64,000 nt of DNA from Halomonas huangheensis (GTDB taxonomy: Bacteria; Pseudomonadota; Gammaproteobacteria; Pseudomonadales; Halomonadaceae), in contig NZ_CP013106.1 in NCBI RefSeq assembly GCF_001431725.1, positions 3,596,001-3,660,000 on the forward strand, read 5' to 3'. Numbering within the stretch: the first letter of the stretch is position 1; each line of letters begins with the position of its first letter. The position numbers and the translations under genes are program-made. Positions 16,328 through 63,854 of this stretch are shown here, piece by piece. The notes below the pieces were generated by a model. That model ran no database searches, was not told the origin of the DNA, and worked only from the letters and a program-made list of their open reading frames with translations.

Positions 16328-17148
<821 letters not shown>

Positions 17149-53560: not shown

Positions 53561-55336
<1,776 letters not shown>

Positions 55337-55747
55337 GATGTATCTCCTGATATTTGATTATGATTTTTGTATACAAAAAGTTTCGACAATGATGCCAAAA
55401 CAAGTTTTGTGGAAATTCTTTTCATTATTTGTAGCAGTCACAAAAGCTCTTTGCCAGAAAAATTGGAAAAAATTTCCACAAAATTGTCGACAGTCATTGC
55501 CAATCATAAATAGATCATTGTTTTTACTTGTAAATAAGCAAAAATATATACTTCATTCATCTTCGACATGATGCAATCAAGTGGAGCAGGAAGCTGCGAT
55601 ATGGACGAGATCAAACCGTGCAAGGCGCAAGATCGATATACCTGTACGAACCAGGCAAGCATCCTTTTCCCACGAACAAGCGTTTGATAACGTATACAGA
55701 AAGTCGTATTCGGAAGAACGCCAGCCAACGCAGTCATTGGCTATACG
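55337..55747. promoter_or_regulatory. gcl control region, homologous to 59820-60242
   Basis: AT-rich sequence with, from the gcl start outward: a perfect palindrome TTTTTGTATACAAAAA (55364-55379, GntR-type core); TGGAAATTCTTTTCA (55410-55424) and TGGAAAAAATTTCCA (55464-55478), matching the IclR consensus TGGAAATNATTTCCA at 13 and 14 of 15 positions; and a second GTATAC (55692-55697). All four elements recur at nearly the same spacing before the gene at 59082-59819. No credible gene is seen here. Confidence 0.7.
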
Positions 55748-55797
55748 CAGACACGACGAATGCCCCCGGAACAGAATGCTCCGAGGGCGACGGGTTA
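55748..55797. repeat. 50-bp exact repeat (copy 1) with hairpin
   Basis: Identical over 50 bp to 60243-60292. It contains the stem GCCCCCGGA (55762-55770) / TCCGAGGGC (55780-55788), probably the terminator of the lost hydantoinase gene and now of the first TRAP operon (minus strand). Confidence 0.95.
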
Positions 55798-55866
55798 CCA
55801 GCCTGAAAGACAGCGACGAAACCTGAGGTCGGCCTTCAGTCCAGCGTCGGCAGTTTCATGTACCGT

Positions 55867-55905
55867 TCAGAATGCCTTGCTCATGCCTCGCGGGCGCGCC
55901 GGCGA
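55867..55905 (-). pseudogene. Relic of a hydantoinase C-terminus (12 codons and stop)
   Basis: On the minus strand the frame reads SPARPRGMSKAF then TGA, matching the intact hydantoinase end QPARPRGMSKGF. The DNA around it also aligns with 60361-60445, and the 50-bp repeat follows at the same distance. The rest of the gene is absent: upstream sequence changes abruptly (about 55905-55962) into the end of dctM. This is a deletion remnant. Confidence 0.85.
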
Positions 55906-55962
55906 TTGTAAATACAATCATGGTGATCGACTCCCCCCCGGCGTCACCCGCAAGACATCGTT

Positions 55963-57264
55963 CTATCCCACAGCGCCGGGCAGCCACAGGACCAGCCCAG
56001 GCCAGAGGATGATCAACCCGACGAACAGCAGCATGATGGCGAGGAACGGCAGACTGCCGAGCATGACATCACCAATCGAGCCACGCCCACGCACGCCCTG
56101 TACCACGTAGAGGTTCATACCGATGGGCGGAGTGATCAGCGAGATTTCCATCATGATCACCAGGAAGATACCGAACCACACCGGGTCGAAGCCGAACTGC
56201 ACCACCATGGGCACCACGATGGGTACGGTGGCAATCATCATCGACAGCGTCTCGAGGAAGCAGCCCAGTACCAGATAGAAGATCACCAGCGCGAGGATCA
56301 AGCCCAATGGCGACAACCCCAGATCGGCGACCCATTGGGTCAGGGTATGGGGGATGCCGAGGATACCCACGATGTAGTTGAGGAAGAAGGCTGCCACGAT
56401 GATCAGCATGATCATCGCCGTGGTACGCGCCATCGACAGGAAGCACTCATGGAGCATGGCGAGGCTCAACTTGCGATTGATCGCCGCCAGTACCAGCGCC
56501 GCCACCACACCCAGTGCCGCCGCCTCGGTGGGCGTTGCCCAGCCGCTGTAGATGCTACCCATGACAATGGCGAAGACAAAAGCTGGTGGCAGCAGGTCCA
56601 CCAGTGATACCAGCCGCTCGCGGAGCGAGGCCCGAGGTTCGGCCTCCCCGGCTACGTCCGGGCGCAACAGGCTGAAAGCAATGATGGCCAGCATGAAGGC
56701 CCCAGCCAATGCCAGACCGGGAAGTATCCCGGCAATGAACAGCTTGCCGATTGAGGTGTTGGTGATTGCCCCATAGATGATCATGTTGATGCTGGGAGGG
56801 ATCAATATCCCCAGCGTCGCTCCGGCAGCCAGCGTCCCCAGCGCCAGGCGCTCGTTGTAGCCACGTTCGGCGAATGCTGGAAGCGCTACGGTTCCGATGG
56901 TAGCCGCGGTCGCCACCGAGGAACCCGACATGGCAGCAAATACCGAGGAGGCACCGATGTTGGTGTGCAACAGCCCGCCAGGCATACGGTTGAGCCAGAC
57001 AGACAACGCACTATACATCCGTTCGGTGATGCCACTACGCAGCAACAGCTCCCCCAGCAGGATGAACAGCGGAATCGATGTCAGAATGAAGTCATTGAGC
57101 GTGCCCCAGAGGACATCGCCGAAGGAATACAGCAGCGGCGTACCCAGGTACATCAAGGTGCCGAGAGCAGCCACTGTAAAGATGGCCACCGACACGTGGA
57201 TACCAGCCCCCATCAGGCCCAGCATGATGAGAAAGCCGACCAGGACCTCGATTGCGGTGATCAT
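55963..57264 (-). CDS. dctM: TRAP transporter large membrane subunit (DctM), first paralog
   Basis: A 433-residue inner-membrane protein with about 12 segments; motifs GSSVATAATIGTVALPAF, GILIPPSINMIIYGAIT and GWATPTEAAALG. It shares long identical blocks with the protein at 61930-63231 (same length), differing mainly near residues 15-45 and 195-225. It overlaps dctQ by 4 bp (ATGA). The gene after it in the second copy (hydantoinase) is reduced to a relic here. Confidence 0.94.
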   Translation of the reverse strand: MITAIEVLVGFLIMLGLMGAGIHVSVAIFTVAALGTLMYLGTPLLYSFGDVLWGTLNDFILTSIPLFILLGELLLRSGITERMYSALSVWLNRMPGGLLHTNIGASSVFAAMSGSSVATAATIGTVALPAFAERGYNERLALGTLAAGATLGILIPPSINMIIYGAITNTSIGKLFIAGILPGLALAGAFMLAIIAFSLLRPDVAGEAEPRASLRERLVSLVDLLPPAFVFAIVMGSIYSGWATPTEAAALGVVAALVLAAINRKLSLAMLHECFLSMARTTAMIMLIIVAAFFLNYIVGILGIPHTLTQWVADLGLSPLGLILALVIFYLVLGCFLETLSMMIATVPIVVPMVVQFGFDPVWFGIFLVIMMEISLITPPIGMNLYVVQGVRGRGSIGDVMLGSLPFLAIMLLFVGLIILWPGLVLWLPGAVG

Positions 57265-57887
57265 GACGCTTTCCTCTGCGGCGTGGTGGTCAAGTCGTCG
57301 GCCTGATCCTGCAGCGCATAGTCATGCCGAGCTTCGTCCAACTCATCCTGGGTATTGCGGGGTCCGTAGTCGCTGTTGAGCGCGAGGAACCGACCGCTGA
57401 ACAACTGCCTCAGGGCATGCAGAGCAAGCAGGCTGGTCAGCACAGCGAAGACTCCCAGCCCCAGAACCCAGAGGCTCTGCGGGAGCCATAGCGGGGTCTG
57501 CAGCGGGGTGCTGGCGAGACTGCCGAACTCCAGTGTCTCGATCAGCGTCTCGACGGCCCGCCACAGCATGAACAGTGAGAAGCCGGCCAGCATCAACATG
57601 GCCAGGGCATTGAGTGGTGCCTGCGCCTTGCCCGGCAGTCTGGCCAGCAGCACGTCGACCCGGGTATGGGCGCGATGCAACAGGGCGTATGCAAAACTGA
57701 ACGAGACACCGATCGCCAGCACATAACCGCCGATCTCATCCACACCCTGCAACGAAAAGCTGAACAGCTTGCGTGCGATCACCTCGAAGGTGATCAGCAG
57801 TGACAGGACCAGCACGGCGTAGCCGGCAGCCACGGCTGCACCATGCGCCAGACTACGAGCTAACCAGTAGGGACTTCGGGATTCCAT
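57261..57887 (-). CDS. dctQ: TRAP transporter small membrane subunit (DctQ), first paralog
   Basis: A 208-residue protein with four membrane segments; QGVDEIGGYVLAIGVSFSFAYALLHRAHTRVDVLL is the DctQ core. The long C-terminal tail (about 165-208) is acidic and hydrophilic (NSDYGPRNTQDELDEARHD). It is clearly paralogous to the protein at 63228-63854. Confidence 0.92.
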   Translation of the reverse strand: MESRSPYWLARSLAHGAAVAAGYAVLVLSLLITFEVIARKLFSFSLQGVDEIGGYVLAIGVSFSFAYALLHRAHTRVDVLLARLPGKAQAPLNALAMLMLAGFSLFMLWRAVETLIETLEFGSLASTPLQTPLWLPQSLWVLGLGVFAVLTSLLALHALRQLFSGRFLALNSDYGPRNTQDELDEARHDYALQDQADDLTTTPQRKAS

Positions 57888-57902
57888 CGGAAACCTCCAC
57901 GG

Positions 57903-57926
57903 GAGCCCCGGCCACGGCCGGGGCTC
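57903..57926 (-). other. Hairpin between dctP and dctQ, first paralog
   Basis: A perfect 10-bp stem, GAGCCCCGGC/GCCGGGGCTC, with a 4-nt loop in the 52-bp gap. The second copy has a different stem at the same place. Confidence 0.75.
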
Positions 57927-57939
57927 GGGTTGACGAGAC

Positions 57940-58995
57940 TTACTGGATGCTCAGGCCGGTAACCTCACCGACGGTGGCATTCCAGTCCTCAACGCAGGCT
58001 GCGTACTGCTTGCTGCAGGTCTCGGCCCACACCGGCAGCACTGCCTCGCTGGCAATCGACTCGACCAACCTGCGGGAATCCGGATCGATCTCCACCAGCT
58101 GCATATCGTAGGCCTCATGGCCTGAGCAGCTCTGCTGGCCGGTGTTGCAGGCAATGGCGTCGTCGTTGACATCGTGGGCCAACTGCCACAGCTGATCGTC
58201 CAGGCGTGAGAATGCCTCGCTGAGTTCCTGCTGCTGCGTCTCATCAAGGCCATTCCAGGTATCCAGATTCATGAAATGTCCCTGCACCGAATACGCCAGC
58301 GGCAACGGCACGAAGCGATCGGTGACTTCCGGCCATTTGCCGTTGTTGCCGGCGGATGGTGCCGTCACACCGCAATCGGCAACGCCTCGTTGCAAGGCCA
58401 GGTAGACCTCGCTGAACTGCAGCGTCACAGGGATCGCCCCGAGGCCTTCCACCAGCCGCGACATGGAGGGAGTGAACACACGGACCTTCTTGCCGGCGAG
58501 ATCATCGACACTCTCGATATCACCATTGCAGAACATCATTTGAGGCCCAAAGGGCCAAAGCGTCATTACCTTGGCGTTGAAGCGCTCCTGCAGGCGCTCG
58601 TCAAACTTCTCGCGTACCGCGTTCACCACCTCTCGCTGAGTCTCCAGATCGGCGGCTACCCCGGCCAGATCGATTCCTTCGAAAAAGGGCTCATCGCGTG
58701 AGGCCATACCGATCTGTACCGACATGACATCAAAGGCGCCAGAGCGAAGCAGACGCAAGGCGTCGGCGGCCTCGACACCAATCGCGTCCATCGGGTTGTA
58801 GACGACCTTCAGACCGTCCATGGCATCGAGCTCGGTGAAGAAGGGCCGCTCGACCTCCTCGACATGCAGCTTGTTGCCGGAGAAGTTGCCGACCGTGCGC
58901 AACAGGGTGTCGCTGGCCTGTGTCAGCCCTGTTACCAGCATGCCAGCGGCAAGTGTTCCGCCGAGCGCAATTGTCCTGGGAGTCATGATTGGCAT
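57940..58995 (-). CDS. dctP: TRAP transporter binding protein (DctP), first paralog
   Basis: A 351-residue periplasmic protein: signal peptide MPIMTPRTIALGGTLAAGML...TQA, mature SDTLLRTVGNFSGNKLHVEE. The DctP signature region is DDLAGKKVRVFTPSMSRLVEGLGAIPV. It contains several cysteines (FCNGD, DCGV, ACNTGQQSC, ETCSKQYAAC), unusual for DctP and likely disulphides. ATG 58993-58995 has GAGGTG upstream. The C-terminus matches the partial paralog at the right edge (LPxWAExC...QYxxC). Confidence 0.92.
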   Translation of the reverse strand: MPIMTPRTIALGGTLAAGMLVTGLTQASDTLLRTVGNFSGNKLHVEEVERPFFTELDAMDGLKVVYNPMDAIGVEAADALRLLRSGAFDVMSVQIGMASRDEPFFEGIDLAGVAADLETQREVVNAVREKFDERLQERFNAKVMTLWPFGPQMMFCNGDIESVDDLAGKKVRVFTPSMSRLVEGLGAIPVTLQFSEVYLALQRGVADCGVTAPSAGNNGKWPEVTDRFVPLPLAYSVQGHFMNLDTWNGLDETQQQELSEAFSRLDDQLWQLAHDVNDDAIACNTGQQSCSGHEAYDMQLVEIDPDSRRLVESIASEAVLPVWAETCSKQYAACVEDWNATVGEVTGLSIQ

Positions 58996-59081
58996 CAGTT
59001 CACCTCGTGATTGGGATTGTTGGTGGTGGTCTTGCCCTTGCGTCGTGCCGGTCAGGAAGCGCCTGACCGAGCCTCCGGACC

Positions 59082-59819
59082 TCACGCCGTCAGGCGCGGG
59101 TCCTGGAACAGCCCTCCCCAGCCACGGACCCTTGCCGGGTCAACATTGGCCATGATCAGTGCCTTCCACACTGTCACGCTGACGGAGTCGTAGATGGGAA
59201 TTCCGATATCCTTCTCCAGGGCCTCGACAATTCCTGCACCACGCAGATTGGTGCACAGAATCGTGATTGCCTGAGGCCGGGCTCTGGCCACATCACGGAC
59301 CATGTCGACGAGAATGTCCTCGTGGTACTCCGAGAAGGAAAAGTTGCCGCGATCGTTCAGGTGACGCTCAGCGATCACCTCGACGCCAGCCTTGTGGTAA
59401 TGGCCGATGATCTCGGCCTGGATCTCGTCGAGATAAGGTGTCACCAGTCCCAGACGCTCCACACCGGTCCGCGCCAGGATCTCATTCAATGCGAGTACGC
59501 TGCTCGTTGCAGGCACCCCTGTCGTTTCGGCAATCGCAGCACATAAGTGGCGGTCTCTCTCGAAACCCAGCCAACTGGCCGAGGTACCGTTCCAGGCAAT
59601 GACATCCATGTGGGCATCACCCAGCAGTGCGGCGGCTTCCAACTGTGCTGTCGGATCGAACTGCGCAAGGGCGGCAGCATCCAGGGCGATTTCCTTGACC
59701 CTGAAACGCTGGAAGTGAGCGGTCACATCAGGTGCCAATTCCTGCAACATTGCCGACGTGTAGGGTTCCAGCACGGTATTGGATGACGGTGTCAGCATTC
59801 CGATGAGCTTGCGCTGCAT
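59082..59819 (-). CDS. Maleate isomerase / arylmalonate decarboxylase-like protein with one catalytic cysteine
   Basis: A 245-residue protein of the Asp/Glu racemase superfamily, maleate isomerase branch: MLTPSSNTVLEPYTSAML at the N-terminus, first loop VIAWNGTSASWLG (Gly78 where isomerases have Cys in ACTS) and second loop ILCTNLRG (Cys189 kept). A single cysteine at the second site with Gly at the first is the arylmalonate decarboxylase pattern (Gly74/Cys188). It could decarboxylate or isomerise a dicarboxylate from the hydantoinase pathway. Its control region is homologous to that of gcl. SD GAGG is 8 nt upstream of ATG 59819. Confidence 0.82.
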   Translation of the reverse strand: MQRKLIGMLTPSSNTVLEPYTSAMLQELAPDVTAHFQRFRVKEIALDAAALAQFDPTAQLEAAALLGDAHMDVIAWNGTSASWLGFERDRHLCAAIAETTGVPATSSVLALNEILARTGVERLGLVTPYLDEIQAEIIGHYHKAGVEVIAERHLNDRGNFSFSEYHEDILVDMVRDVARARPQAITILCTNLRGAGIVEALEKDIGIPIYDSVSVTVWKALIMANVDPARVRGWGGLFQDPRLTA

Positions 59820-60242
59820 GGCTCGGACCTCAGGTGTCTATGCATTTTCTTATGCATCTAGCTTTGTGTACAAAAAAATGCAGATTCTTATTTTATTTCT
59901 TTATGTGGAAATTCTTTTCATTAGTTGTATCAGCTGTAAAGCAACGTTACCAGATAATTGGAAAAAAATTCCACAAGCCTTTCTCATACCAGCACAGACG
60001 CAAATCAACTAATTGTTTTAATTAAAAAAATTACAAGAAACTATCTCTCGTCATTCTTCGAAATGAAGCGACGAAACACTGAAAAAGAAAGGGGAAGGAA
60101 CAGAGAAAGACCCTGGAGAGCCCTCGCTGAGGATGTCTTGAGGCGTTGAAAAATAAGTTCCGGATACGAGAAGGTCGCTGTGCATTGTATACATGACCAA
60201 CGCCCCTAAAGGTCGATGATCAATCTCGCCAATGACCGCTTA
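59820..60242. promoter_or_regulatory. Control region of the decarboxylase-like gene, homologous to the gcl control region
   Basis: TTTGTGTACAAA (59863-59874); IclR-type boxes TGGAAATTCTTTTCA (59906-59920, identical to the gcl copy) and TGGAAAAAAATTCCA (59959-59973); GTATAC (60187-60192). GTRTAC-to-GTATAC distance is 321 bp against 323 bp at gcl, and box-to-box distance 53 against 54 bp. Two ATGCAT motifs (59840-59857) lie near the start. A purine-rich stretch (60060-60120) has no counterpart in the gcl copy. No gene is visible. Confidence 0.7.
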
Positions 60243-60292
60243 CAGACACGACGAATGCCCCCGGAACAGAATGCTCCGAGGGCGACGGGTTA
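60243..60292. repeat. 50-bp exact repeat (copy 2), terminator of the hydantoinase gene
   Basis: Identical to 55748-55797; stem GCCCCCGGA (60257-60265) / TCCGAGGGC (60275-60283). On the minus strand it lies about 120 bp past the hydantoinase stop. Confidence 0.95.
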
Positions 60293-60412
60293 TAACCCTG
60301 AAAAACCAGCGTTTCGTCAGAGGATTGTTTCGACAGATAGCCGTTTCTACAGACAATAATATCGAAATCTGAGGTCAACTATCTGTTCAGTGTCGGCAAT
60401 TCCAGGTGGCGC

Positions 60413-61843
60413 TCAGAAGCCCTTACTCATGCCCCGCGGACGTGCCGGTTGTGGTCGCTCGCATTCGAGGAACTGTCCATAGCCCGGGCTCCCTGCCGGG
60501 GCGCCGTCGCGGGATACCACCGTGCCACGGCAAAGGGTCAACACCGGCCTGCCGATCAACTCCAGCCCTTCGTAGGGTGTGTAGTCAACCGCATGATGCA
60601 GGTCCTGATTACGCACGGTAGAGCGTGCTCGAGGATCCCACAGGGTGATGTCGGCATCACTGCCGATAGCAATTGTGCCCTTGCGGGGATAGAGCCCATA
60701 GATCTTCGCCGGATTGGTCGCCGTCAAGGCCACAAAGCGAGTGGCATCGATGCGTTCCTTGATCACTCCTTCGGAGAACAGGATCGATAGTCGTGTCTCC
60801 AGTCCCGGGATCCCGTTGGGGATATGAGTGAAGCTTGCCGACTCACCATTGAGCTTCTTGCCCTTCGGGTCGTCATAGCGAAATGGCGCGTGGTCCGATG
60901 AGAACACCTGAAAGACCCCTGTCTCGAGCGCTTGCCAGACAGCTTCCTGGGCAGCGGGATCTCGGGGTGGCGGGCTACATACACACATGGCGCCATCGAA
61001 TCCTGGTTGATCCAGGTCATCCGCCGTCAACATCAGATACTGGGGACAGGTTTCACCGTAGACCCTCAAGCCACGCCCCTGGGCCCAGCGAATCTGCTCG
61101 ATGGCCTCCGGGCCTGAGACATGCACAATCAACACAGGAACATCGATCAACTCGGCCAACGAAATAGCACGATGAGTGGCCTCACGTTCAGCGATGGATG
61201 AGTGAGCCTCAGCATGAAAGTATGGAGCGGTTTTTCCCTGTTCCTCAAGCAGTTCGGTGAGATAGGCAATGCAGTCAGCATTCTCTGCATGCACCATCAC
61301 CATGCCGCCCTCACGGCGCGCCAGCGCCAGCACGTTGAGTACCTCACGATCATTGAGTTTGAGATCGTCATAGGTCAGATAGATCTTGAACGAGCTGTAC
61401 CCCTCTTCAATCAATGCGGGGAGTTCCTCCTTCAGCACCTTCTCGGTGGGATCCGTGACGATCATGTGGAAGGCATAGTCGACCCAGGCCTTGCCTTCGC
61501 TACGCTGGTGGTAATCCGCCACAGCAGCCCTCAAACTCTGGCCCTTGAACTGGGCCGCAAAGGGAATCACTGTGGTCGTCCCGCCGCATGCTGCTGAACG
61601 CGTCCCGGTATCGAAGTCGTCGGCCATCACCGCTCCATCCCCCAGCGGCTGGTCAAGATGACAGTGCGCATCAATCCCACCAGGCATCACCCAAAGCCCG
61701 TCAGCGTCGATCGTCTCGTCCGCCTCACCGGGCTCCTGACCCAAAGCAACAATACGGCCATCTCGAATACCAATATCCGCGGTGTAGCGATCGGCAGCCG
61801 TAATGATCAGCCCATTCTTGATCAGGGTATCGAACCTTTTCAT
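60413..61843 (-). CDS. hydA: Dihydropyrimidinase / hydantoinase family amidohydrolase
   Basis: A 476-residue cyclic-amidase with a binuclear zinc site: His60 and His62 (DAHCHLDQP), carboxylated Lys153 (SSFKIYLTYDD), His185 (VHAEN), His241 (VHVSG) and Asp317 (SSDHAPF), all at normal spacing. It opens hydantoin, dihydropyrimidine or related cyclic ureide rings to N-carbamoyl acids. It lies 86 bp downstream of the second TRAP set. No N-carbamoylase is in the window, so the pathway beyond ring opening is unknown. A paralogous gene once lay after the first TRAP set. Confidence 0.93.
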   Translation of the reverse strand: MKRFDTLIKNGLIITAADRYTADIGIRDGRIVALGQEPGEADETIDADGLWVMPGGIDAHCHLDQPLGDGAVMADDFDTGTRSAACGGTTTVIPFAAQFKGQSLRAAVADYHQRSEGKAWVDYAFHMIVTDPTEKVLKEELPALIEEGYSSFKIYLTYDDLKLNDREVLNVLALARREGGMVMVHAENADCIAYLTELLEEQGKTAPYFHAEAHSSIAEREATHRAISLAELIDVPVLIVHVSGPEAIEQIRWAQGRGLRVYGETCPQYLMLTADDLDQPGFDGAMCVCSPPPRDPAAQEAVWQALETGVFQVFSSDHAPFRYDDPKGKKLNGESASFTHIPNGIPGLETRLSILFSEGVIKERIDATRFVALTATNPAKIYGLYPRKGTIAIGSDADITLWDPRARSTVRNQDLHHAVDYTPYEGLELIGRPVLTLCRGTVVSRDGAPAGSPGYGQFLECERPQPARPRGMSKGF

Positions 61844-61929: not shown

Positions 61930-63231
61930 TCAGCCCATGGCCTCCGGTAGCCACAAGACAAGTCCTGGCCACAATATAATCAGTCCAACGAACAGCAGCA
62001 TGATCGCCAGGAATGGCAGACTACCGAGCATCACATCAGAAATGGAGCCCCGACCACGCACCCCTTGCACCACATAAAGGTTCATTCCAATGGGTGGCGT
62101 TATCAGAGAGATTTCCATCATGATGACAAGGAATATTCCGAACCATACCGGATCAAAACCGAACTGCACTACCATCGGCACAACGATGGGAACTGTGGCA
62201 ATCATCATCGACAGGGTCTCAAGGAAACAGCCCAGCACCAGGTAAAAGACCACCAATGCCAGAATGAGACCAATAGGAGAAAGTCCCAACTCCGCCACCC
62301 ATTGGGTCAAGGCATGAGGAATACCGAGAATACCAACGATGTAGTTGAGGAAGAATGCCGCCACGATAATCAGCATGATCATCGCCGTGGTACGCGCCAT
62401 CGACAGAAAACACTCATGCAGCATCGGCCAGCTGAGCTTACGGTTGATCACCGACAGCGCCAGCGCCGCCACTACCCCAAGCGCTGCAGCTTCAGTAGGC
62501 GTCGCCCAACCGCTATAGATGCTGCCCATGACGATGGCAAAGACACAGGCCGGGGGAAGCAGATCCAGCAATGCGGCAAGGCGCGCCCGAAACGGTATGC
62601 GCTCCTCAGCCCTGCCGGCCACTCCCGGTCGTAACACACTGATCGCCATGATGATCAGCATGAAGGCCCCCGCAAGCGCCATGCCCGGCAGAATACCGGC
62701 AATGAACAGCTTACCTATGGAAGTATTGGTAATCGCCCCATAGATGATCATGTTGATGCTGGGTGGGATCAGGATTCCCAGCGTTGCCCCGGCGGCAAGG
62801 GTACCCAGCGCCAGACGCTCACTGTAACCTCGTTCCGAAAATGCCGGTAATGCCACCGTGCCGATCGTCGCTGCGGTAGCTACGGACGATCCTGACATCG
62901 CAGCAAAGACCGACGATGCACCAATATTGGTATGCAACAGCCCACCAGGCAAACGATTCAACCAGACTGACAGAGCATGGTACATGCGATCGGTTATGCC
63001 ACTTCGCAGCAGCAGTTCTCCCAACAGGATGAAAAGTGGAATCGATGTCAGGATGAAGTCATTGAGTGTTCCCCAGAGGGTATCGCCAAACGAATACAAC
63101 AATGGCATCCCCAGATACGTCAGCGTGCCGATCAGGGCTACCGAAAATATCGCCACCGCCACGTGCACACCAATTGCCATCATGCCGAGCATGATCAAGA
63201 AGCCGACCAGAACTTCGAATGCTCCCATCAT
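61930..63231 (-). CDS. dctM: TRAP transporter large membrane subunit (DctM), second paralog
   Basis: A 433-residue paralog of the protein at 55963-57264 with the same motifs and length. Codon use is visibly more A/T-rich at third positions than in the first copy, so the copies have diverged for some time or one came by transfer. It overlaps dctQ by 4 bp. Likely importer of the hydantoinase substrate. Confidence 0.94.
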   Translation of the reverse strand: MMGAFEVLVGFLIMLGMMAIGVHVAVAIFSVALIGTLTYLGMPLLYSFGDTLWGTLNDFILTSIPLFILLGELLLRSGITDRMYHALSVWLNRLPGGLLHTNIGASSVFAAMSGSSVATAATIGTVALPAFSERGYSERLALGTLAAGATLGILIPPSINMIIYGAITNTSIGKLFIAGILPGMALAGAFMLIIMAISVLRPGVAGRAEERIPFRARLAALLDLLPPACVFAIVMGSIYSGWATPTEAAALGVVAALALSVINRKLSWPMLHECFLSMARTTAMIMLIIVAAFFLNYIVGILGIPHALTQWVAELGLSPIGLILALVVFYLVLGCFLETLSMMIATVPIVVPMVVQFGFDPVWFGIFLVIMMEISLITPPIGMNLYVVQGVRGRGSISDVMLGSLPFLAIMLLFVGLIILWPGLVLWLPEAMG

Positions 63232-63854
63232 GTCTGCTGACTCCCGGGAGACGTGACGGATGTGGAGTCACCCTCGTCCCCTCGATAATCCTGCTGTGCC
63301 TGGTTCAACTCGTCCTGCGCCGAACGCGGCCCGAACTCGGTATTGAGCTGAGTTACCTGCCCTCTTGCCAGCAGAACCACTGCTCTCACCGCCAGCAGAG
63401 TGCTCAAGGCCGCGAATACGCCAAGCCCAGCAACCCACAACCCCTGCGGAATCCACAATGGTGTCTGCAAGGGCGTACTGGCCAGGCTACCAAACTCAAG
63501 CGTCTCGGCCAGGGTCTCAGCAGCTCTCCACAACATGAACAGCGAAAAGGCGGCCAACAGCGCCATGGCCAGCGCATTCAGCCCTCCCTGCACTACAACC
63601 GGAAAACGTCCCAACAGAACATCCACCCGGGTATGAGCGCGTTCCAACAAGGTGTAAGCGAGGCTGAATGAGACTCCTGTCGCCAGCACATATCCACCAA
63701 TCTCGTCAGCCCCCTGGAGGGAAAAGGAAAAGACCTTGCGCGCCACCACCTCAAATGTGATCAATATCGCCAGGCCTAATGTGGCATAACCTGCAATTAC
63801 CGCAGCGCCACCTGCCAACCGTTTCGGCAGATAATCAGCGTCATTCTTTCTCAT
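63228..63854 (-). CDS. dctQ: TRAP transporter small membrane subunit (DctQ), second paralog
   Basis: A 208-residue protein with four membrane segments; QGADEIGGYVLATGVSFSLAYTLLERAHTRVDVLL corresponds to the first paralog almost residue for residue, and the acidic tail (NTEFGPRSAQDELNQAQQD) is also conserved. GAGGAC-type ribosome site precedes ATG 63854. Confidence 0.92.
   Translation of the reverse strand: MRKNDADYLPKRLAGGAAVIAGYATLGLAILITFEVVARKVFSFSLQGADEIGGYVLATGVSFSLAYTLLERAHTRVDVLLGRFPVVVQGGLNALAMALLAAFSLFMLWRAAETLAETLEFGSLASTPLQTPLWIPQGLWVAGLGVFAALSTLLAVRAVVLLARGQVTQLNTEFGPRSAQDELNQAQQDYRGDEGDSTSVTSPGSQQT

Follow-up and report, generated by a model that had tools for sequence, protein, structure and literature searches.

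Known regulators of gcl and two control regions in Halomonas

The closest described counterparts of the locus considered here, namely the promoter of the glyoxylate carboligase gene gcl in a 64,000-bp window of a Halomonas chromosome and a copy of it before a tripartite ATP-independent periplasmic (TRAP) transporter operon, are those of Escherichia coli, Pseudomonas aeruginosa, and Paracoccus denitrificans. The window is the whole stretch analyzed, G000:C1:3596001-3660000, within a single-contig 4.76-Mb genome. The motifs of AllR, which controls gcl and allS-allA in E. coli, and of IclR, which controls the glyoxylate bypass, have been tabulated (PMC8222616, Table 1), and binding of AllR is lowered by glyoxylate (PMC11323563). 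The box TGGAAAAATTTTCCA is located 36 bp before E. coli gcl and TGGAAAAATATTCCA between allS and allA, both being of the same type as the boxes in the window. In the E. coli gcl stretch searched, only one box (at up to two mismatches) and no GTRTAC site were found, whereas in Halomonas two boxes flank the likely promoter and the predicted regulon extends to glcB and aceE. In P. aeruginosa, the GntR-family protein UgmR (PA1520) represses gcl and the allantoin cluster and is relieved by uric acid; the accessible part of the source discusses no IclR-type regulator for this gcl and describes its derepression by allantoin as open (PMC12694930). Compared by target set and purine-island location, the UgmR target pair, gcl and the puuE cluster, matches the GTRTAC sites in Halomonas. 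In P. denitrificans, a glyoxylate-responsive IclR relative, BhcR, and a GntR repressor, GlcR, likewise act in C2 metabolism, but the β-hydroxyaspartate cycle genes are activated by BhcR, and GlcR targets a different promoter (PMC11323563). The kinds of regulator are known; their proposed combination, with promoter capture by rearrangement, is new. No description of an IclR/GntR regulon for allantoin or glyoxylate in Halomonas was found in a literature search of partial coverage.

Two control regions were analyzed, A upstream of gcl and B upstream of Amd1, which encodes an Amdase (Asp/Glu-racemase / arylmalonate decarboxylase-fold) protein. All eight sites reported in the initial annotation, two IclR-type boxes and two GTRTAC sites per region, were found at their places (Table 1): the box starts are 54 bp and the GTATAC sites 323 bp apart in control A, and the corresponding distances in control B are 53 and 321 bp. 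The boxes had been assigned to the IclR/AllR type, and indeed all four have zero or one mismatch to TGGAAANNNTTTCCA and agree with the A/T-rich palindromes TGGAAATNATTTCCA or KTTGGAAWAWTWTTCCAAC known for AllR/IclR-type operators (motifs from PMC8222616, Table 1). At up to one mismatch, TGGAAANNNTTTCCA occurs at 22 places in the genome vs. 3 for the reversed pattern. The best genome match of TTGGAAAAAATTTCCA is control A (0 mismatches) and the second best is control B (1 mismatch). Operators of FadR-subfamily GntR proteins are A/T-rich palindromes with TKGT/ACMA boxes (PMC4494728); the proximal sites, TTGTATACAA and TTGTGTACAA, fit this consensus, as the earlier assignment of the GTATAC sites would predict, and the distal site of control A, ACGTATACAG, has a one-sided fit.

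The two regions were previously described as one homologous control region. Their likeness holds, at 82% in the box region (self-BLAST, 55405-55481 vs. 59900-59976), but it arises because two related Amdase-TRAP units adjoin. In a global alignment, 399 of 497 ungapped columns are identical, although the many gaps inflate this figure. The distal GTATAC sites of A and B do not coincide in this alignment, so their equal spacing does not establish homology. Between the boxes and a hairpin-containing block the alignment is poor, and the boxes and the proximal GTRTAC remain in both regions. Chance likeness was ruled out by the duplicate segments, the rarity of the boxes, and the conservation at gcl; independent recruitment of the sites was ruled out by the duplicate segments found by self-BLAST.

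These observations are fairly probably explained by an ancestral two-repressor switch at gcl that was copied before a TRAP operon by rearrangement. Control A would represent the ancestral form of the gcl switch in this group of Halomonas. A repressor of the AllR/IclR/BhcR clade would bind the two boxes flanking the likely core promoter, sandwiching it, and would be released when glyoxylate accumulates. A GntR-FCD repressor encoded in the purine island would bind GTRTAC near the gene start and would be released by a purine-derived signal. Thus, gcl would belong to two regulons at once, one for glyoxylate together with malate synthase G and aceE and one for purines together with puuE, racemase, and xanthine permease. 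Two Amdase-TRAP-hydantoinase units would have come into tandem beside gcl, one hydantoinase gene being reduced to a remnant and the TRAP genes being exchanged or acquired, and the switch copy, control B, would now precede Amd1-DctP1-DctQ1-DctM1.

Conservation at gcl and two predicted overlapping regulons

In total, 38 gcl upstream regions of 250 bp were surveyed, the window's own included and none dropped; GTRTAC was counted in the last 150 bp. The box was found in all 38, a conservation at the same gene in relatives that is expected of an AllR/IclR-type operator. The box pair was found in 30 (all but L068, L069, L071, and L341-L345) and GTRTAC in 31 (all but L048, L056, L057, L068, and L341-L343). 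First-order resampling would yield 0.1, 0.0, and 1.45, respectively. By its purine-island GntR protein (90%), Halomonas cupida DSM 4740 came out as the closest named relative, and its gcl is 97% identical; relative searches may omit records very close to the window genome. H. cupida has no Amdase match, and its gcl is preceded by boxes at -143 and -89 and by GTATAC at -38, -362, and -430. In addition to the longer match with control A (Table 1), a 28-bp block around the -362 site is 96% identical. These data suggest that the box/GTRTAC design at gcl is ancestral in this Halomonas group. A 45-bp stretch of the H. cupida gcl upstream matches the aminohydrolase-end piece of control A at 89%, and therefore the aminohydrolase gene probably adjoined gcl before the units intervened. 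In many relatives, a TTGAC-like and a TA-rich hexamer 17 bp apart were seen by eye between the two boxes in the alignment. GTATAC abuts box 2 in many relatives; in A and B, GTRTAC is closer to the gene.

Boxes were also found before glcB (malate synthase G) in 22 of 24 loci and before aceE in 22 of 23 in the own and same-genus genomes (misses: L180, L181, and L196), with no match of the reversed pattern. Among the outgroup matches with a stored locus, the box was absent at two mismatches from 6 glcB and 7 aceE loci. In the own genome, a box is located upstream of a malic enzyme-like frame as well.

The gcl/Amdase locus is located in an allantoin/purine catabolic island, which bears out the proposed link to allantoin and glyoxylate metabolism. 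Past the right edge of the window (L010), the island contains DctP2, Amd2, a divergent third TRAP set, a racemase gene, and a GntR-FCD gene, as well as genes for ureidoglycine aminohydrolase, ureidoglycolate lyase, the allantoinase PuuE, two NCS1 permeases, and a DcuC-type carrier; further racemase genes, a second GntR-FCD gene, and a urate oxidase fragment frame follow. The islands of 80 named loci were surveyed for genes with at least 250 bp upstream, and rows of ten or more genes are given here. Boxes were found before gcl (19/20), dcuC (10/19), allA (7/49), and allE (4/54), and before none of 65 puuE genes. GTRTAC was found before puuE (56/65) and race2 (50/57), which have one divergent promoter, and before race1 (9/15). 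It was less frequent before genes of the GntR family (12/87), allE (1/54), and the NCS1 permeases (1/61 and 0/44), and was absent before the urate oxidase fragment (0/78) and allA (0/49). Reversed patterns were found in none of these rows. Among upstream regions of 450 bp, the GTRTAC hexamer was found at 14 of 14 xanthine permease genes vs. 3 of 24 glcB and 3 of 23 aceE genes, and the box at only 2 of the 14; eight permease matches at 41-43% identity were left out of this count.

Hence, the distributions of the sites do not fit the single dual-regulator regulon proposed initially. They point instead to two regulons overlapping at gcl, a predicted IclR-type one with glcB and aceE and a predicted GntR-type one with puuE, racemase, and xanthine permease. 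Apparently, E. coli-like and Pseudomonas-like control meet at one promoter, which makes Halomonas a testable two-input design. Malate synthase, malic enzyme, and pyruvate dehydrogenase form a Kornberg-type route, and malate synthase G and pyruvate dehydrogenase are connected with gcl by one box type. A broader interpretation, put forward tentatively and with somewhat less than even confidence, is a genus-wide glyoxylate regulon under a single AllR/BhcR-like repressor covering both the glycerate route through gcl and the malate synthase G-malic enzyme-pyruvate dehydrogenase route, with gcl additionally gated by a purine-responsive GntR repressor and the complete switch passed to the TRAP operon in this strain.

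Two further boxes of this genome are worth noting. A Tsx-like nucleoside channel gene (L109) has TGTATACA and an IclR-type box (G000:C1:3553797-3553811) near its start. A perfect box (G000:C1:122952-122966, L127) between a glyoxalase-fold gene and a gene for a small ABM-domain monooxygenase is a possible further target.

Candidate regulators

Both regulators had been expected outside the window, and the best candidates are located there. Nine IclR-family proteins were found in the genome, which agrees with the expected presence of such a regulator. L002, encoded elsewhere on the chromosome (G000:C1:98169-99026, minus strand), outscores the other eight with the AllR, IclR, and BhcR models; its best NCBIfam model is BhcR, and among PDB entries it matches the AllR effector domain (1tf1) best. 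It is 43% identical to E. coli IclR and 42% to AllR. Four of the five oxygen-contacting pocket residues are as in IclR/AllR (residue list from PMC11323563). Gly160, Asp212, Ser239, Ser241, Met146, and Leu220 are as in IclR and Met at 143 is as in AllR; Val at 161 and Ala at 154 differ. L002 was found in 36 of 37 same-genus genomes, the missing one being only 87% complete, and a box was found upstream of 10 of 30 L002 orthologues. Six same-genus genomes have no gcl match, and L002 is present in all six. Among these, the box was found at glcB in G004, G011, and G017 but not in G002 and G003 (five read), and at aceE in all four read. Thus, L002, a protein of the AllR/IclR/BhcR clade, is the candidate box reader. 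Binding by another of the nine proteins appears very improbable: the KdgR-like L001, for example, scores above the KdgR cut-off (376.4 vs. 275 bits), but KdgR has a different published motif (PMC8222616, Table 1), and it is L002 that leads the AllR, IclR, and BhcR scores.

The candidate GTRTAC reader is the GntR-FCD protein of the purine island (L010:18430-19170), which is UgmR-like in its target set; 12 of 20 stretches contain it close to the urate oxidase fragment, and several stretches stop short of its place. The sites might be read by the other GntR-FCD protein, encoded beside the third TRAP set (L010:8155-8901). Its gene is closer to the units, GTATAC is located before it, and GTRTAC precedes the neighboring race1 in 9 of 15 loci. 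Nevertheless, TTTGTATACAAA at puuE persists where this gene was not found (e.g., L087 and L092), and the sites around the gene and before Amd2 have a different extended form, GTATACCGAATAC-like, so we regard this assignment as rather improbable.

Origin of control B

On the minus strand, the gene order is Amd2-DctP2-DctQ2-DctM2-hydantoinase-control B-Amd1-DctP1-DctQ1-DctM1-[hydantoinase remnant]-control A-gcl. The control region, hairpin block, hydantoinase 3' end, DctM-DctQ, DctP, and Amdase are collinear related segments; DctM-DctQ matched at 76% by self-BLAST (55979-57796 vs. 61946-63763). The aminohydrolase piece beside control A (55836-55869) is 91% identical over 35 bp to L010:8944-8978. 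The initial annotation had linked the TRAP/hydantoinase locus to this control. Control B can drive Amd1-DctP1-DctQ1-DctM1, as judged from its position, but it is located 3' of the hydantoinase gene and so cannot drive it; orientation rules this target out.

Among the gcl stretches of 20 relatives (17-18 kb read), five have one full unit upstream of gcl, one has Amdase and hydantoinase genes without related TRAP genes between them, and in 14 none was seen. Among 22 named genomes, seven have one Amdase match at 73-77%, one has a match at 51%, and 14 have none at E 1e-30. Two units were found in none of these 20 loci and 22 genomes, sets that have at least three genomes in common. The expected conservation of the boxes in orthologous promoters, complete at gcl, failed at the Amdase genes: at up to two mismatches, no IclR-type box was found in 12 other Amdase promoters of 330 bp (Amd2 and 11 relatives), Amd1 alone having boxes, and therefore box control of the Amdase operon is derived. 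The GTRTAC hexamer was found in 9 of these 12, mostly in a different context. A search with control B DNA in 97 genomes returned its own copies and one 25-base match (E 8e-4) in another family.

The history of the units is read as a mosaic of duplication plus recombination. In trees of 12 rows, Amd1 is sister to Amd2 (98/97). The closest grouping of TRAP copy 1 is with H. beimenensis and H. stenophila (100/99), and the test rejects a common clade of the two TRAP copies (p-AU 0.0023). Alternatively, another Halomonas may have supplied a second unit, control region included, that recombined beside the first, with no duplication in this lineage. This history is less probable than not: the TRAP trees and the lack of an Amdase gene in H. 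cupida favor it, whereas the Amdase sisterhood argues against it, as does the junction of hydantoinase and aminohydrolase ends, which together with the 93% block is common to both units and was not found in seven single-unit loci. In the hydantoinase-gcl gaps of those loci, the aminohydrolase piece and hairpin block gave only short matches. Control B may also be a passive relic of the rearrangement, its sites persisting merely because the copy is young. In favor of this, the better conserved segment (93%) is the hairpin block, for which no regulatory role is known, rather than the box region. However, the region from boxes to hairpin aligns poorly and DNA divergence between the coding copies amounts to 18-24% of positions, so the arrangement cannot be very recent, and both boxes and the proximal GTRTAC were nevertheless retained; a passive relic is accordingly unlikely. 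Since these sites survived amid diverged intergenic sequence, the uptake operon probably shares, and probably gained, the control of gcl. Control B is a concrete candidate for an operon acquiring a ready-made switch via rearrangement.

Several points weigh against the two-repressor switch and its copying. Simple tandem duplication of the whole unit is excluded by the rejected TRAP clade. L002 scores below the NCBIfam equivalog cut-offs (AllR 222.6/406, IclR 256.1/380, and BhcR 336.6/350 bits), and its own gene in this genome has no box. At up to two mismatches, TTTGTATACAAA is not enriched genome-wide (43 matches vs. 52 reversed), so its support rests on conserved position, and among the gcl upstreams of the named island loci no more than 7 of 20 have the strict GTRTAC form. 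Of the 22 own box places, 5 are the present sites and the allA/dcuC promoter, 13 were read by locus, several of them falling within reading frames and possibly due to chance, and 4 were uninspected. A consensus promoter scan gave 4 sites in the whole stretch vs. 2.2 expected, with matches in A and B at about shuffle frequency. Finally, the sequences show directly the sites, their conservation, the adjacency of the units, and the gene relationships; the binders, effectors, expression, and order of events are predictions.

Table 1. Features of the gcl and Amdase-TRAP region (window coordinates)
Feature	Position	Strand	Evidence
gcl, glyoxylate carboligase, 591 aa	53561..55336	-	NCBIfam TIGR01504, 1182.7 bits vs. 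cut-off 711.2
Control A, gcl control region	55337..55816	-	alignment to control B; H. cupida 151 bp at 81%
Control A proximal GTATAC, within TTTGTATACAAA (55366-55377)	55369..55374	.	sole exact genome match of TTTGTATACAAA
Control A IclR-type box TGGAAATTCTTTTCA	55410..55424	.	pattern match
Control A IclR-type box TGGAAAAAATTTCCA	55464..55478	.	0 mismatches
Control A distal GTATAC	55692..55697	.	kept at -362 in H. cupida
Hairpin-containing block, 68 bp, 93% to 60243-60311	55748..55815	.	self-BLAST, alignment; hairpin by eye
Hydantoinase 3'-end remnant and piece resembling ureidoglycine aminohydrolase gene 3' end	55817..55902	-	77% to 60363-60448
DctM1, TRAP large membrane subunit	55963..57264	-	PF06808
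DctQ1, TRAP small membrane subunit, DctQ2 homologue	57261..57887	-	position and homology
DctP1, TRAP solute-binding protein, true start probably internal	57940..59085	-	PF03480
Amd1, Asp/Glu-racemase / arylmalonate decarboxylase-fold protein	59082..59819	-	PF17645 69.7 bits, PF01177 35.1 bits
Control B, copy of gcl control region	59820..60312	-	self-BLAST and alignment
Control B proximal GTGTAC, within TTTGTGTACAAA	59866..59871	.	pattern match
Control B IclR-type box TGGAAATTCTTTTCA	59906..59920	.	pattern match
Control B IclR-type box TGGAAAAAAATTCCA	59959..59973	.	pattern match
Control B distal GTATAC	60187..60192	.	homology to distal site of A not demonstrated
Hydantoinase/dihydropyrimidinase-like gene, upstream unit	60413..61843	-	NCBIfam NF009941, 767.1 bits vs. 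cut-off 647
DctM2, upstream unit (continues past window: DctP2, Amd2 in L010)	61930..63231	-	PF06808
DctQ2, upstream unit	63228..63854	-	65% to DctQ1

Amd1 scores under the NCBIfam EutA and arylmalonate decarboxylase cut-offs. The hairpin block is more alike between A and B than the coding copies are, and it was not found in the H. cupida gcl upstream. The only match in an Rfam scan of 55300-60500 was mir-3747, at 34.4 bits vs. a gathering score of 63; it was dismissed as a chance match to a palindromic stretch rich in A/T. In one relative, the ureidoglycine aminohydrolase gene is followed on its 3' side by a further piece of itself, 120 bp long (L088:6098-6217), besides the intact gene; thus, the 3' end of this gene was copied more than once in the group. 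In this relative and another, both with a window-like gcl promoter, an open frame of 684-687 aa (L078:12162-14225 and L088:3968-6022) is located on the opposite strand between the aminohydrolase gene and gcl. Elsewhere in the window, 26 exact copies of the 7-base unit CGTAAGC (16967-17148) close a 216-aa frame without a Pfam match, and their number may differ between cells.

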